Under the pieces are notes generated by a model. It had not been told where the DNA came from, made no database searches, and worked only from the letters and a program-made list of their open reading frames with translations. Positions 2,293 to 31,005 of a stretch of 38,598 nucleotides of DNA are shown one piece after another. This DNA comes from a virus, in the IMG/VR virus record IMGVR_UViG_3300033146_000614, positions 1-38,598 of that record. The stretch is one strand, 5' to 3'. Positions within the stretch are counted from its first letter, which is position 1. The number at the start of each line of letters is the position of its first letter. Made by a program: the position numbers and the translations under genes.

Positions 2293-2914
2293 ATTGGAAG
2301 TTAAATTAACTAAAGATGGATTATTAGTAGATGGTAAACTTACATCTGAATATCCGAAAAATGTAAATGTATTACACTGTTATGATTGTACAATAGAAAA
2401 GGGTACAAGATTGATAGACATTTTCGAATACCTTAATAAGGATATAAGTAAATGGGAAGCATTATTGGGTAATTGGAGTGGTGAGTTTATAAAAAATGGT
2501 GTTGATAACAAGAAAATAGACAAGGGTTCTGAGGTCGATTATTTAGAAATGTATTGGTATATAATGAAAGATGAATCAGGTGATATTGAAATTCAAAATT
2601 TCATGTCATTTCATGGATTATCAAATACTGACAACACAATGTATAGCCTGTCATTATCACCAATAGAAGAATTAATGTTTTATGAGATAAAAGTTAATGA
2701 TAATGTAGTAGGTTATGAAAATGGTGAATACGTAACAATGTTCCAAAGGAAACCAACACTATTCAATATATTGTTCGGTCTGTTTTGGGAGATATCATTC
2801 TATGGGGATACAAAAAATAAAGTCGAAGTTGTTAAGGATTTGAATAGTATAGATATGGACAACTTAGAGACTGTTTCTATAGATGAGTTGATAGATGAAA
2901 TGGAGAATGAATGA
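2285..2914 (+). CDS. Hypothetical protein, about 209 aa
   Basis: The frame is open from TTG 2276. I place the start at GTG 2285 (MNELEVKLTKDG), overlapping the upstream stop by 8 bases; TTG 2294 is the alternative, and no in-frame ATG or clear ribosome site exists, so coupling is likely. The first third contains LxVDGKLTSEYPKNVNVLHCYDC, a small beta-rich segment with a Cys pair. The middle has EEL.FYEIKVN and a hydrophobic stretch (TLFNILFGLFWEISFYG), and the C-terminus is acidic. I do not recognise the family. Its stop overlaps the polymerase ATG by 4 bases. Confidence 0.65.
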   Translation: MNELEVKLTKDGLLVDGKLTSEYPKNVNVLHCYDCTIEKGTRLIDIFEYLNKDISKWEALLGNWSGEFIKNGVDNKKIDKGSEVDYLEMYWYIMKDESGDIEIQNFMSFHGLSNTDNTMYSLSLSPIEELMFYEIKVNDNVVGYENGEYVTMFQRKPTLFNILFGLFWEISFYGDTKNKVEVVKDLNSIDMDNLETVSIDELIDEMENE

Positions 2915-4764
2915 TACACATAACGTTCATAAGTACAAAAGATGAATATTATAAGAATCAGGAGTTATTAGATTCTAATAGATTGATTAAGTTTAATCCA
3001 AATATATTCGAACACTTGGAAGTCGGTTCAAAAATAAAAGATTCCAACTTAATAATATTTTTTGAAAAGGCATTAATAGAAACCTACCCAGATCGAACCC
3101 GTTTTGGATTCTTCGGAACTAATGGTGGTGAAAGTTTAAATTTCTCAATTAGAGACTATTCATTTTATGACACATACTCGAAGAATGAACAGAATGAAGA
3201 TTTTAAGTATATAACAGATAAGATTGATAAGTTTTTGAAGAGGTATGCAATTGTTAAGGTAACTAATTCATTGATATATTATAATGATATTAACTTCAAT
3301 ACTAATTCATATAAGAATAAACATAAATCAAATGTCAAGTATGTCGAACACCCCTCAGGTGAGTTTGATTCATATGATGGTAAGAAGCTCATGCCTATTA
3401 ACAGAGATGTAGTTACCTCAAAAAAAACATATGACGGGCACTTATCAGCTTCACAACTATTTCATTATGATAATTTTCCAGGTTTGAGATATACAAAAGT
3501 CTATAACTATATAACATATGATATTGAGAATAACATGAGTCTTAATTTGGACACAACTCCAGAACCTGTGATATCGTTGGTGTGTTATTCTAATGTGTTG
3601 GATACAACGTTCTCTTGGTTGTTAAAACATAAACCTGAGCAAGAATTTGACGCTAGTAAATTCGATTCTAAAGTTTTTGTTTTCGTTAATGAAGTTGAAA
3701 TGTTGAAACACTTTCTATTGTTTGTGAGAAAGTTGGGTGTTAGTCTAATACAAGGTTGGAACTCTGATGGATTCGATAATGTATATCTTTTGAATAGATG
3801 TAAAGCTATAGGTGTGAACGTATCAGAAACTTTTAAAGGGTTAAGACTGAATACGAATAAAGAGGGTCGTAGATACTACAGAGCTAATAATATGATATTC
3901 TTCGATTTAATGACATATTATAAGATGGCAACGATTAAGAATAAACCTAAAGATTTCAAATTGAACACTGTAGCTGAGCACGTTTTCAAAGAAAATAAGG
4001 TTGAGCACGAAGGTATAGATGTTATGTGGATAAATGATCCACATAAGCTTATAGAATACAATATACAGGACGTCTATCTAACAGAACGTATATCAGTTGA
4101 GGTTAGACTATTATCATCTGCTATGGCTCTACAATCGATTTGCCCACAAGATTTTGATAATATATATTATAACTCGAAAACTATCGAAAATCTCATACAT
4201 ATGCACTTCAAACATTTAAAGTTCCCAACTAAAGTTAACAACGTTAAACGTGGTAAATTTAAAGGTGCATTAGTCGTTGAACCAAAACCTGGTTTATATA
4301 ATGATGTTGCTGTATTAGATTATGCTAGTCTATATCCGAGTATAATTATTACAATGAACTTGTCACCAGAGACAATAATAACGGGGCAAGAATTTGATGT
4401 AAATACAATGGCTAAGATAGATGATGTAATATTCGACCAAGAAGTTGAAGGTATTATACCACAAATAACAAAATATTTATTGAGTAAGAGAGATGAGATA
4501 AAGAATGAAAAGAGTAAATATCCTGGGAATAGTGACATATTCGCATTACTTAATAATAAAGAACAAAGTTTTAAGAGACTTGTTAATAGTGCATATGGAG
4601 TTTTAGGTTATGAAGGGTTCTTTTTATATGATGAAAGAGTTGCAAGAAGTATAACATTCATAGATAGAGAGATATTGAAATGGACTATAAAAACTGGAGA
4701 AGACAACGGATATAACAACCTTTTTTCAGATACTGATAGTGTATTCTTCGAACTAGGTGAATAA
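2911..4764 (+). CDS. 43A: DNA polymerase family B, N-terminal and palm part (split gp43)
   Basis: A 617-residue replicative polymerase fragment containing the proofreading exonuclease and most of the palm. Exo I is YDIEN (D204), Exo II is WNSDGFD (F288 region) and Exo III is YNIQD (D387). Pol motif A is DYASLYPS (from residue 470), motif B is KRLVNSAYG (from 555) and motif C is SDTDS (D607). All catalytic residues are therefore here. The chain ends ten residues after motif C (VFFELGE then stop), where RB69/T4 polymerase continues into the C-terminal palm and thumb. That missing part is the separate gene at 6023-6766. ATGA overlap with the upstream gene suggests coupling. A functional enzyme would need the two chains to associate. 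Confidence 0.95.
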   Translation: MIHITFISTKDEYYKNQELLDSNRLIKFNPNIFEHLEVGSKIKDSNLIIFFEKALIETYPDRTRFGFFGTNGGESLNFSIRDYSFYDTYSKNEQNEDFKYITDKIDKFLKRYAIVKVTNSLIYYNDINFNTNSYKNKHKSNVKYVEHPSGEFDSYDGKKLMPINRDVVTSKKTYDGHLSASQLFHYDNFPGLRYTKVYNYITYDIENNMSLNLDTTPEPVISLVCYSNVLDTTFSWLLKHKPEQEFDASKFDSKVFVFVNEVEMLKHFLLFVRKLGVSLIQGWNSDGFDNVYLLNRCKAIGVNVSETFKGLRLNTNKEGRRYYRANNMIFFDLMTYYKMATIKNKPKDFKLNTVAEHVFKENKVEHEGIDVMWINDPHKLIEYNIQDVYLTERISVEVRLLSSAMALQSICPQDFDNIYYNSKTIENLIHMHFKHLKFPTKVNNVKRGKFKGALVVEPKPGLYNDVAVLDYASLYPSIIITMNLSPETIITGQEFDVNTMAKIDDVIFDQEVEGIIPQITKYLLSKRDEIKNEKSKYPGNSDIFALLNNKEQSFKRLVNSAYGVLGYEGFFLYDERVARSITFIDREILKWTIKTGEDNGYNNLFSDTDSVFFELGE

Positions 4765-5461: not shown

Positions 5462-6026
5462 GAAAGAACATACTAAATGTTATAAATGTAAGAAGAATAT
5501 AAATTTTAATAATTCTATATATTATTATGATAATGTACCGTATCATTATGAATGTATATATGATAAATTAATGGAGATAGTTGGTAAGAAATACTTTGAT
5601 AATATATTTAATTCATTGCGGAAAGTTAGAGAAGATGATAAATATAGGTCGTCATATGATTTAGTCATTGTAAACTCTAAAGAATATCACGATATACAAA
5701 TGAAATCCATATTTTCGAAGATGAGAGATAAGATAATCACAGAATCTATAGCAATGCAGAATTTGAAAACATTATCACAACGGGAAGATTTCAAACCAAA
5801 TAAATTCAACACAAAATTTGTGACTTCTGTATTGGAAATGTATGATAGAAAACATCACATGAGCAATAAACAACGTGAAATGGTCTATAATATATTAAAC
5901 GATTCTGGTATAGAACTAATAATACCAAAAGAACTTAATATAAAACATCAATTAGTGTTGAAGATAAGAGAGAAGAATTATTATAGATGGTATAAAGAAG
6001 TTAATAAATACGAGGATTGCGAATGA
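5448..6026 (+). CDS. Zinc-ribbon-like hypothetical protein
   Basis: Start ATG 5448 follows AGGGAG at good spacing; an upstream in-frame start at 5424 lacks one. The 192-residue product opens with CYKCKKNINFNNSIYYYDNV then YHYEC, a CxxC...HxxC arrangement typical of a LIM/zinc-ribbon-like knuckle. The remaining 150 residues are highly basic and helical, ending NYYRWYKEVNKYEDCE. The combination could bind nucleic acid. It sits between the polymerase halves and overlaps the C-terminal half by 4 bases. It is not a recognised homing nuclease. Confidence 0.6.
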   Translation: MVRNKKEHTKCYKCKKNINFNNSIYYYDNVPYHYECIYDKLMEIVGKKYFDNIFNSLRKVREDDKYRSSYDLVIVNSKEYHDIQMKSIFSKMRDKIITESIAMQNLKTLSQREDFKPNKFNTKFVTSVLEMYDRKHHMSNKQREMVYNILNDSGIELIIPKELNIKHQLVLKIREKNYYRWYKEVNKYEDCE

Positions 6027-6766
6027 ATATAGATAGAGCAATAGAAAGGGGTAAAAACATAGAAGCAATTATAAATAAATCTATGCCGGACTTCATAAGA
6101 ACTTTCACACATTCAAAAAATGCAATAAATAGGAACCTATACGATATAGAATTCGAAAAATTATATGATAAACTGTTTCTAACACACGCAAAAAAGAAAC
6201 AAGTCGGATGGTTATCGTACTACAAAGGCAAAAAATTGGACCCGTTTAAATTCGATGTAACTGGGTTTGAAAGTATAAAGGGTGATACACCAACAATGTT
6301 CCAGGATGCATTGAATGGTTTGTATAAGGAGATACTAGCTAATTACCATAATGTTGAGAAGATTAGAAATTATGTAACTTCTGTTATAAATAAATTAAGA
6401 GATGCAACGATAGACGATCTAATCATAAGGAAGAGAATGGCTAAGGAAGTAGAAGAATATGATACTATACCACAACATATAAGAGCTGTAAATAATTCAG
6501 ACACTGTATTACATAGAGGTGATATAGTTAATATGGTATTCGTAGACGGTCCGATGGAGGTGATACATTACGACCCAACTAAACCATTTAACCATAGAAT
6601 AAATAAGAAACATTACTTTATAAAATTTTTTAGAAGTAAGATAGAAACAATGGATGAAGGTTTATTTTATAGATTATTTGAAGAGAAGACAAAACTTGTG
6701 GAGATACATAAGTCAGCATTGAAACGTACAATAAGACGTTCAATAAAGACTAAGAAGTTAATATAA
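6023..6766 (+). CDS. 43B: DNA polymerase family B, C-terminal palm/thumb part (split gp43)
   Basis: A 247-residue product whose middle matches the end of family B polymerases: KKKQVGWLSYYKGKKLD, then FDVTGFESIKGDTPTMFQ (family pattern GLE..RSDTP), a helix, then DLIIRKRMAKEVEEY and IPQHIRAVN (family pattern DLII.KRL...L.EY....PH.RA). Its N-terminus picks up where the 2911-4764 product stops, so the two together (about 864 aa) cover a whole gp43. Start ATG 6023 overlaps the previous stop and has GAGG 7 bases upstream. Its stop is followed after one base by the tmRNA-like gene. Confidence 0.88.
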   Translation: MNIDRAIERGKNIEAIINKSMPDFIRTFTHSKNAINRNLYDIEFEKLYDKLFLTHAKKKQVGWLSYYKGKKLDPFKFDVTGFESIKGDTPTMFQDALNGLYKEILANYHNVEKIRNYVTSVINKLRDATIDDLIIRKRMAKEVEEYDTIPQHIRAVNNSDTVLHRGDIVNMVFVDGPMEVIHYDPTKPFNHRINKKHYFIKFFRSKIETMDEGLFYRLFEEKTKLVEIHKSALKRTIRRSIKTKKLI

Positions 6767-6767
6767 T

Positions 6768-6896
6768 GGGGGCGCGTAGGTTCGACTATTGTTGAGAACG
6801 TAGAGATACGGATTTCCCGCAATTAAATGCACTTGTCTAATAGGGAGATTTGATTGACAATAGGACTCGGCGGGCGGCTCGCCGACGCCTCCACCA
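6768..6896 (+). ncRNA. ssrA: Compact tmRNA (ssrA-like) gene, 129 nt
   Basis: Acceptor stem GGGGGCG (6768-6774) pairs with CGCCTCC (6886-6892), followed by A and an encoded CCA (6894-6896). TAGGTTCGAC (6777-6786) matches the conserved tmRNA 5' D-loop region (GG-UUCGAC). Helix 2 is CTATTGTTGA (6786-6795) with TTGACAATAG (6854-6863). GGAC precedes a T-arm-like hairpin TCGGCG/CGCCGA (6867-6885). A tag frame reads DTDFPQLNALV from 6805 and ends in tandem stops TAA-TAG (6838-6843). A stem ATTTCCC/GGGAGAT (6812-6818, 6843-6849) encloses the tag end like helix 5. Odd points: no room for pseudoknots, and the T-loop (GGCGGCT) lacks the usual TTC. The resume codon is not certain. tmRNA rescues stalled ribosomes and tags their products. 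Confidence 0.82.
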
Positions 6897-6914: not shown

Positions 6915-7163
6915 ATGGATAAAAGAAAAATGGTAGCTAAATACAACGAAGAAGCATTAATACCAGATGGGTTCGAATCGGCAATAATTGGAGTATCTTT
7001 CAATTTCGGGAAAGAACCAGTTGCTGCGATATCATACTCGAAATGTATAGATATCTTAATGTCTAGAGATAATATGACACAAGAGGAAGCTGTAGAATTT
7101 TTTGAATTTAATGTCTTGGGTTACGGTGGTGGGGATACACCTTCATTTGTATTTGAATTCTAA
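6915..7163 (+). CDS. Conserved phage hypothetical protein, 82 aa
   Basis: Follows the tmRNA by 18 bases with an AAGGA ribosome site. The sequence (LIPDGFESAIIGVSFNFGKEPVAAISYSKCIDILMSRDNMTQEEAVEFFEFNV...GGDTPSFVF) matches a small family widespread in tailed phages, with the pattern [A/D]GFDxAIIG, then MTxEEAxEFFxFNVxGxYxGxxTPxF. No catalytic role is known to me. It is the last gene before the late-type promoters begin. Confidence 0.8.
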   Translation: MDKRKMVAKYNEEALIPDGFESAIIGVSFNFGKEPVAAISYSKCIDILMSRDNMTQEEAVEFFEFNVLGYGGGDTPSFVFEF

Positions 7164-29695: not shown

Positions 29696-29966
29696 ACGGG
29701 TCAAAGAGTTTAAACTCAAACTTAAGGGTCAGGGAGCAATAATGAATGGTTACGGTGAGACTACAGCATGTTGGATGTCTATTTTCACAGGGTTTAAAGG
29801 TTATGGTGTTGGTGAATTAAATCAATATGGCGTCAGTGGTCGTGGGTACAGTAGCACCTATAGAGACAATGGTTATGGTCATGGTTTCAATAATGATGTC
29901 AATAAGAATATGGCAGATATTGATAATTGGGAGTATATAAAGGAGGGTAAAAATGGAAGAACTTAG
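29685..29966 (+). CDS. Hybrid: Cys-family-type leader fused to a Gly/Tyr-rich body
   Basis: ATG lies 10 bases inside the previous gene. The N-terminus IAERVKEFKLKLKGQGAIM copies the family lead-in, but instead of CxxC it runs into a Gly/Tyr-rich segment (NGYGETTACWMS; FKGYGVGELNQYGVSGRGYSS; DNGYGHGFNND). The Gly-rich part recalls the proteins encoded at 37593-38300. Possibly a recombinant between two paralogous groups; the product may also be poorly conserved filler. No strong ribosome site. Confidence 0.5.
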   Translation: MIAERVKEFKLKLKGQGAIMNGYGETTACWMSIFTGFKGYGVGELNQYGVSGRGYSSTYRDNGYGHGFNNDVNKNMADIDNWEYIKEGKNGRT

Positions 29967-31005
29967 ATTTGTAAAGATGGGTAAGATTAGTAAGTTTGAG
30001 AGTTGTGTTCATAATGTAAAACACAACACTAGATATATTGGTCTAGATGAGAAAGGAGAGCCGATGTATAATGATAATGAGTTACCTAGGATCAAATTTA
30101 TAGGGACTGTGAAAATGCATGGAACCCAAGCAGGAGTGGTTCAGAACGGGGCAAGAATACATTCACAGAGTAACAGAAAAATATTAGGTATTGAAGGGGA
30201 TAATGCAGGTTTCAATTCATTTGTTAAGAAACACATTGCTGAATTCGAAGAGATGTTTAAACAAGTTAGAATGCATCATCAGGTACTGAAGAATGAAATC
30301 ATTACTATATATGGAGAATGGTGCGGTCCAGGTATCCAAAGTGGAATGGGTATTAATAAGATGGAAGATAAGTTTATGGTGATCTTCGGGATAAAGATAT
30401 CAACAATAGATGAAGAAGGTAATGCAGTTGGTAAGATGTTAGAACCTAATACATTTAACTATATACAGAACCCAAAGATTAGAGTATATAACATATATGA
30501 TTTCCAAACATATGAGATTGAAATAGATTTTAATAATCTTGAACCTTATGTTGAACAGATTGAGAATTGGGTCAATGCTGTGGCTAAAGAGTGTCCAGTA
30601 GCTAAGAAACTTGGAAACATATCTGGTAATGGTGAAGGTATCGTATTCATAGGTAAATTCGATGGAAACAGATATATATTCAAAAGTAAAATAGATGTTG
30701 ACGCTATAGCTAAAGATAAAATTAGAAAGGTTAAAGTTAAAATATCCCCGGAAAAGTTGGATAGTATAAAATCATTTGTAGAGTACGCATGTAATGAAGA
30801 TAGATTATCACAGATGTTTAAACAGATAAAAACTGTACCAAAGAGTATGACTGATTTAGGTGGTTTCTTAAAATCAGTATCAAGGGATATAATAGACGAA
30901 GAAATTTTAACACTAGAAAAATCAAATTTAGAGTGGGATGATGTTAAGAAACAAATACCCAAATATGCTAGAGATTGGTTCATTAAAAATATAATGGAAG
31001 TTTAA
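29953..31005 (+). CDS. RNA ligase (T4 Rnl2-like)
   Basis: A 350-residue ATP-dependent RNA ligase that seals nicked RNA; phages use it to repair host-cleaved tRNAs and other RNAs. Nucleotidyltransferase motif I is KMHGTQAG with K54 as the adenylated lysine. Later motifs: ITIYGEWCG (motif III-like), FMVIFGIKI (IIIa), GEGIVFIG (IV) and YIFKSKI (V). The C-terminal helical domain (from about 260) fits the Rnl2 type; T4 Rnl2 is 334 aa. GGAGG precedes the ATG and the gene overlaps the previous one by 14 bases. Confidence 0.88.
   Translation: MEELRFVKMGKISKFESCVHNVKHNTRYIGLDEKGEPMYNDNELPRIKFIGTVKMHGTQAGVVQNGARIHSQSNRKILGIEGDNAGFNSFVKKHIAEFEEMFKQVRMHHQVLKNEIITIYGEWCGPGIQSGMGINKMEDKFMVIFGIKISTIDEEGNAVGKMLEPNTFNYIQNPKIRVYNIYDFQTYEIEIDFNNLEPYVEQIENWVNAVAKECPVAKKLGNISGNGEGIVFIGKFDGNRYIFKSKIDVDAIAKDKIRKVKVKISPEKLDSIKSFVEYACNEDRLSQMFKQIKTVPKSMTDLGGFLKSVSRDIIDEEILTLEKSNLEWDDVKKQIPKYARDWFIKNIMEV

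Follow-up and report, generated by a model that had tools for sequence, protein, structure and literature searches.

A usual tmRNA is 300–400 nt long, pseudoknots are typical of it without being universal, and the ribosome rescue that it serves is essential in some bacteria. Standard tmRNAs (RF00023), including those of phage records L071, L152, L299 and L300, measure about 390–450 nt, and the tmRNA of the cluster C phages Alice and LinStu (about 435 nt) carries a 25-residue tag that ARAGORN gives as ATDTDATVTDAEIEAFFAEEAAALV followed by a stop, in agreement with the ALV ending that the first-pass annotation gave for a cluster C tag. Alphaproteobacterial tmRNAs (RF01849) and their phage copies are permuted, two-piece molecules with tags of about 10–15 aa. 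At the other extreme stands mycobacteriophage DS6A, whose tmRNA is termed 'TLD only' (Hudson 2014, PMC4131195, citing Mao 2009): a phage-encoded tRNA-like domain with no pseudoknots, reported to have little beyond that domain and no CDS. Tagging is reported to be retained when pseudoknot 1 is cut down to a hairpin or single strand, the ORF and pseudoknots accept extensive change, and AUAG/AUAA is preferred upstream of the resume codon (PMC4236655), while 2-aa tags and CDS-less forms are also known (PMC11915505).

The RNA described here lies in a 38,598-base virus record (hereafter, the window, meaning the whole stretch analysed) and is almost certainly a genuine mini tmRNA whose tRNA-like domain is intact, occupying positions 6768–6896. 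Compared by description to the DS6A molecule, it adds two hairpins, a resume context, a 3-codon frame and tandem stops, and is intermediate between TLD-only and full tmRNA forms. It shares the acceptor, D-region, start of helix 2, GGAC and CCA with standard tmRNA (and a 6-bp T-stem with a GGCRGNU loop with the four phage examples), whereas it is only 129 nt long, has a helix 2 of only 10 bp, no pseudoknots and a putative 3-codon tag, and falls below Rfam detection. The GGCGG in its T-loop, CGCCUCCACCA and UAAAU directly before GCA are shared with the RF01849 type, which differs in its permuted order, 5-bp T-stem and GGCGGUA loop from the one-piece, standard-order RNA of the window.

Anatomy and genomic setting of the 129-nt RNA

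The features of the locus are as follows.

6017–6766, + strand: C-terminal part of DNA polymerase B, upstream neighbour (phrog_262, PF00136)
6768–6774, + strand: 5' strand of the acceptor stem, GGGGGCG, with G3 of G3-U70 at 6770; 7/7 pairs with 6886–6892
6775–6785, + strand: D-region analogue, CGUAGGUUCGA
6786–6795 / 6854–6863, + strand: helix 2 (P2), 10 bp, from the fold and pair counts
6799–6810, + strand: hairpin 1, CGUA-GAGA-UACG, with a GNRA tetraloop, at the place of pseudoknot 1 (MFE and centroid folds)
6811–6850, + strand: hairpin 2, GAUUUCCC/GGGAGAUU, whose 24-nt loop contains the putative tag (folds)
6824–6828, + strand: UAAAU, preceding the putative resume codon and fitting the consensus UA[AG]NU of phage/alpha tmRNAs
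6829–6837, + strand: putative tag GCA CUU GUC, Ala-Leu-Val; ALV before a stop is also the cluster C tag end
6838–6843, + strand: tandem stops UAA UAG
6863–6866, + strand: GGAC before the T-arm
6867–6885, + strand: T-arm UCGGCG-GGCGGCU-CGCCGA, 6-bp stem, loop GGCGGCU; same type in L071, L108, L152 and L299
6886–6896, + strand: 3' strand of the acceptor, CGCCUCC (U70 at 6890), discriminator A (A73) and encoded CCA (6894–6896)
6915–7163, + strand: 82-aa protein, downstream neighbour (phrog_13182, function unassigned)

The tRNA-like ends agree in every element with the first-pass description, including the 7-bp acceptor, the encoded CCA, GGAC, a 10-bp helix 2 and the tmRNA signature GUAGGUUCGAC, which lies at 6776–6786; CGUAGGUUCGAC is also present among the features of this domain. 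The D-region is equal in length to, and near-identical with, that of the full-length phage tmRNAs L071 and L299 (CGTAGTTTCGAC) and L300 (CGTAGATTCGAC), and the 5' end GGGGGCGCGUAG.UUCGAC is common to the window RNA and L071. Between the helix-2 strands, the insert is 58 nt long with a putative 3-codon CDS. As had been proposed for a phage tmRNA of this size, there is no space for pseudoknots, and the RNA folds as two simple hairpins. The suggested folding of the locus bore this out, with an MFE structure that contains the two inner hairpins as well as the acceptor and helix 2 (z −2.5), and helix 2 with its insert alone gave z −2.56 (3/200 shuffles folded equally well). Hairpins at both positions also occur in the short forms L172, L214, L178, L187 and L237.

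A descriptor composed of the acceptor, TCGAC, GGAC, the T-stem and ACCA matched once in the real window and in 0/150 simulated windows, which puts the complete tRNA-like domain far beyond chance. The proposed Rfam and ARAGORN scan did not recover it: neither ARAGORN nor Rfam at the gathering threshold matched 6768–6896, and the top sub-threshold tmRNA match was alpha_tmRNA over the T-arm and acceptor (E 0.09), a miss that we attribute to the odd T-arm. An attachment-site fragment of a host ssrA gene was considered and rejected, since the RNA retains both ends as well as helix 2 and a bacterial match was not found.

The 5' end begins 1 nt past the polymerase stop (TAA, 6764–6766), so that the RNA adjoins this gene as first noticed, and 18 nt separate the 3' end from the start codon that follows. 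The family B DNA polymerase itself is split into two ORFs (2911–4764, 6017–6766) that are separated by 1.25 kb containing three further ORFs (phrog_13501, DUF3310 and one lacking a confident match), and no close relatives of the polymerase parts were found in viral contigs. The window carries T4-type head genes (portal phrog_213; major head protein phrog_138) whose best matches, at 29–35% identity, are to Pelagibacter phage Mosig and Synechococcus phages, and the record probably covers only part of the genome of a divergent T4-like myovirus. Its prohead protease (PF03420; 19138–20814) contains an apparent intein (weak Intein_splicing match, residues 81–416), and an RNA ligase (29953–31005; phrog_548, PF09414) possibly acts in RNA repair.

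T-arm types and the class of short phage forms

The T-arm of tmRNA usually has a 5-bp stem and a UUCRANN loop. The window T-arm, with its 6-bp stem, is unlike this form, and its loop GGCGGCU lacks TTC, as had been pointed out. Alpha-type acceptors in IMG/VR, of which 119 loci were counted and 107 had the motif of a 5' part downstream, belong mostly to permuted genes whose T-stem is 5 bp long and whose T-loop is GGCGGUA. A second T-arm type combines a 6-bp stem with a GGCRGNU loop and is seen in the full-length one-piece tmRNAs L071, L152, L275, L284, L299, L300 and others, in the permuted L108, L277 and others, and in the minis of the window, L178 and L293. Rfam assigns the six named one-piece forms to tmRNA and L108 to permuted tmRNA, and judged from these sequences the second type appears to be a natural phage form. 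The GGCGGCT T-arm pattern gave 0 matches in a scan of one bacterial genome collection. T-arm look-alikes from cultured phages were set aside: some were tRNAs, others tmRNAs of full-length or permuted type, and others resembled attachment-site fragments close to integrases.

The window RNA is not the lone curiosity that it had seemed, as it is one of 24 distinct mini tmRNAs (82–142 nt) in viral contigs, collected by two IMG/VR pattern scans filtered on structure and one later T-arm scan. RF00023 scores most of the short forms above gathering (53–75 bits), but not the window RNA; matches were obtained in 20/26 records searched, a count that includes two full-length forms. Because MAFFT puts the acceptor one column off, the pairs of the acceptor, T-stem and helix 2 were counted in a frame fixed at 40 columns. 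Across the 24 minis, 94.2% of the cells were paired, falling to about 51% when partners were slid by one column, and double-sided changes numbered 141 compared to 43 in shuffles. The minis had been selected for their acceptor, T-stem and a portion of helix 2, so this covariation demonstrates coherence of the class and is not an unbiased test.

An unbiased addition came from blastn with two of the minis: the isolated Streptomyces phages pSt2308 (L323), LuckySocke (L324), BRock (L325) and GiJojo (L326) each proved to have an 81-nt form. These forms score 57–64.5 bits with RF00023 and are unannotated or lie beneath a hypothetical gene. Their acceptors differ while G3-U70 is kept, and they share GAAAGCCGCACGCGGA, are tag-less and have no encoded CCA. 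The pattern that collected the other 23 minis required GGAC, yet this motif is present in these blastn-found phage forms as well. The same search against phages with the window locus and L178 as queries gave nothing useful, and the pattern GGTTCGAC..GCCTCCACCA had 32 matches in viral contigs, none of them a mini tmRNA. A strict mini descriptor with a 5-bp T-stem yielded no credible mini in a species-level bacterial genome collection; its three matches were rejected, one from Streptomyces as probably due to chance and two from one Croceicoccus locus with a permuted-type acceptor 5' part downstream. As far as the openly readable literature extends, no description exists of the intermediate two-hairpin class or of a 129-nt form bearing a plausible tag.

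The putative tag and competing readings

The first-pass annotation had placed a short tag frame in this RNA. Its ALV ending and the tandem stops within a hairpin loop were retained, whereas the tag PQLNALV was replaced by ALV, read from the likely resume codon GCA at 6829. The hairpin loop reads UAAAU, then GCA CUU GUC UAA UAG, in other words the phage resume context, an Ala codon, ALV and two stops. Among 78 phage/alpha tmRNAs, this context is UA[AG]NU before GCA, located 32–80 nt from UCGAC in nearly all, and the window site, at 47 nt, is inside the usual range. In shuffled inserts, the exact site with an in-frame stop arose in 0.15% of cases and a relaxed version in 0.8%, in a test framed after the sequence had been seen. 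Because the cluster C tag has the same end, ALV is a phage tag end in use. The full-length phage tmRNAs that resemble the window RNA in T-arm and D-region likewise carry tags, a point in favour of tagging. Two other frames were set aside: PQLNALV has no resume context, and AUAC/GGA.. has its stop inside helix 2.

In the other short forms, the tag is far less evident. An AAA(N)GC motif is present in the inserts of all eight minis of 112–142 nt, against an expectation of 2.1, and in several it sits in a hairpin loop. Only in the window (ALV and two stops) and L178 (AH and a stop) is it followed by an in-frame stop before helix 2 closes. Within this size range, UA[AG] at −5 to −3 combined with GCN and such a stop is confined to the window; among the 82–94-nt minis, the combination of UA[AG], a GCN resume codon and a stop ahead of helix-2 closure does not occur. 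Most minis therefore lack a usable tag, including L172 and L214, which have the two-hairpin layout of the window. A loose parallel to the window frame exists in L237 (UUAAAG before CCC ACU GUU UAA; PTV and a stop).

Further short frames were noted. L178 (9399–9540) and L187 (11474–11613), which differ in their T-arms, both contain AATACGGC[AG]GGG, which in one frame reads NTAG[IL].. plus a stop in both and may represent either a tag or a structural element. In the 139-nt mini L184 (4715–4853), AUAAAG before GCA GCU CUC GUC would read AALV with no stop after it, and by eye its hairpin loop CAGUAC could pair with a downstream GUACUG as a pseudoknot.

That the window RNA is a minimal tmRNA that appends AALV is the favoured reading, to which, on the sequence evidence, we give even odds. 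If so, the mini tmRNA would be excised from a polycistronic transcript and charged by host AlaRS with alanine via G3-U70, A73 and CCA; host SmpB would bind it through the tRNA-like domain, and it would enter ribosomes stalled without a stop codon, where its alanine would take the nascent chain. The message would then switch to GCA at 6829, Ala-Leu-Val would be read, and the tandem stops would free a protein ending in -AALV. Hairpin 1 would replace pseudoknot 1, and hairpin 2 would carry the tag and stops like helix 5 of ordinary tmRNA. What the sequence analysis establishes is the anatomy, the resume context, the class and the conservation of the tRNA-like domain; processing, expression, charging, SmpB binding, ribosome entry and tagging are all modelled here on established tmRNA biology. 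With slightly more reserve, we suggest that this could be the smallest tag-bearing tmRNA described: one-piece, 129 nt, pseudoknot-free, with a 3-codon tag leaving -AALV, from a phage-borne mini class (82–142 nt) that gave no credible match in one pattern scan of species-level bacterial genomes. Tagging is left in doubt because most other minis lack a usable tag and because DS6A provides a TLD-only precedent of a type reported to inhibit tmRNA. It also counts against tagging that no close relative displays a conserved ALV frame, that L172 and L214 have the layout without the tag, that the RNA falls below Rfam gathering and ARAGORN, and that no SmpB gene is in the record; indeed, SmpB is absent from all 26 records searched.

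Several of these points would suit a decoy, a tRNA-like-domain RNA that titrates SmpB, perhaps along with AlaRS or EF-Tu, and blocks trans-translation in the host, with the ALV frame as a remnant or chance product. We regard this as a serious but somewhat less probable explanation. A molecule similar to the DS6A 'TLD only' form, chargeable or not, is reported to have strongly inhibited tmRNA, perhaps via SmpB titration (PMC4131195; PMC11915505). Most of the minis lack a usable tag, the four Streptomyces phages carry tag-less 81-nt RNAs, and SmpB is encoded in 0/26 records searched. However, a pure decoy would have no need of a resume context, Ala codon and tandem stops, all of which are in the window at the usual spacing, and the insert is ~45 nt longer than the 82-nt minis need. 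The closeness of the T-arm and D-region to those of L071, L299 and L300 could alternatively mark a full-length phage tmRNA that shrank through deletion and lost its function, an improbable history given that all helices are intact (including T-stem pairs that differ from the relatives), CCA is encoded, and minis with covarying helices recur across many unrelated phages. Least probable is a bait or repair substrate against tRNA-cutting defence enzymes, outside ribosome rescue; RNA-triggered Cas12a3 is reported to cleave tRNA tails (PMC12851939), and the window encodes the RNA ligase described above, but this gene is 23 kb from the mini tmRNA with nothing connecting them, and the tmRNA-specific GGUUCGAC, GGAC and resume context would be superfluous.

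If the tagging reading holds, the RNA would define the minimum needed for trans-translation, with pseudoknots dispensable in nature; if it is instead a decoy, RNA inhibitors of ribosome rescue would have evolved repeatedly in phages. Either way, the unannotated 81-nt members in the four isolated Streptomyces phages make the class accessible to testing.

Phage tmRNAs in other records

Phage tmRNAs proved to be more widespread than the first-pass annotation had assumed in calling them rare, with >100 IMG/VR contigs carrying permuted alpha-type forms and unannotated examples in phiCbK, its relatives and cyanophages. In the phiCbK group of Caulobacter phages, phiCbK (L309), CcrColossus (L310), CcrBL9 (L311), CcrBL10 (L321) and CcrSC (L322) have an unannotated permuted tmRNA near tRNA genes (RF04321, 71–84 bits), and in phiCbK a GOLLD RNA is close to it. 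The cyanophages S-CAM1 (L313), S-SSM7 (L314) and S-CAM3 (L319) carry a permuted, cyano-type tmRNA (RF01851, 109–128 bits) that is not annotated as such, and two of these are overlaid by 'hypothetical protein' genes. Unannotated tmRNAs were also found in other isolated phages: a full-length form in Gordonia phage GodonK (L315) and permuted forms in Bordetella phage PHB04 (L329) and Achromobacter phage JWDelta (L330).
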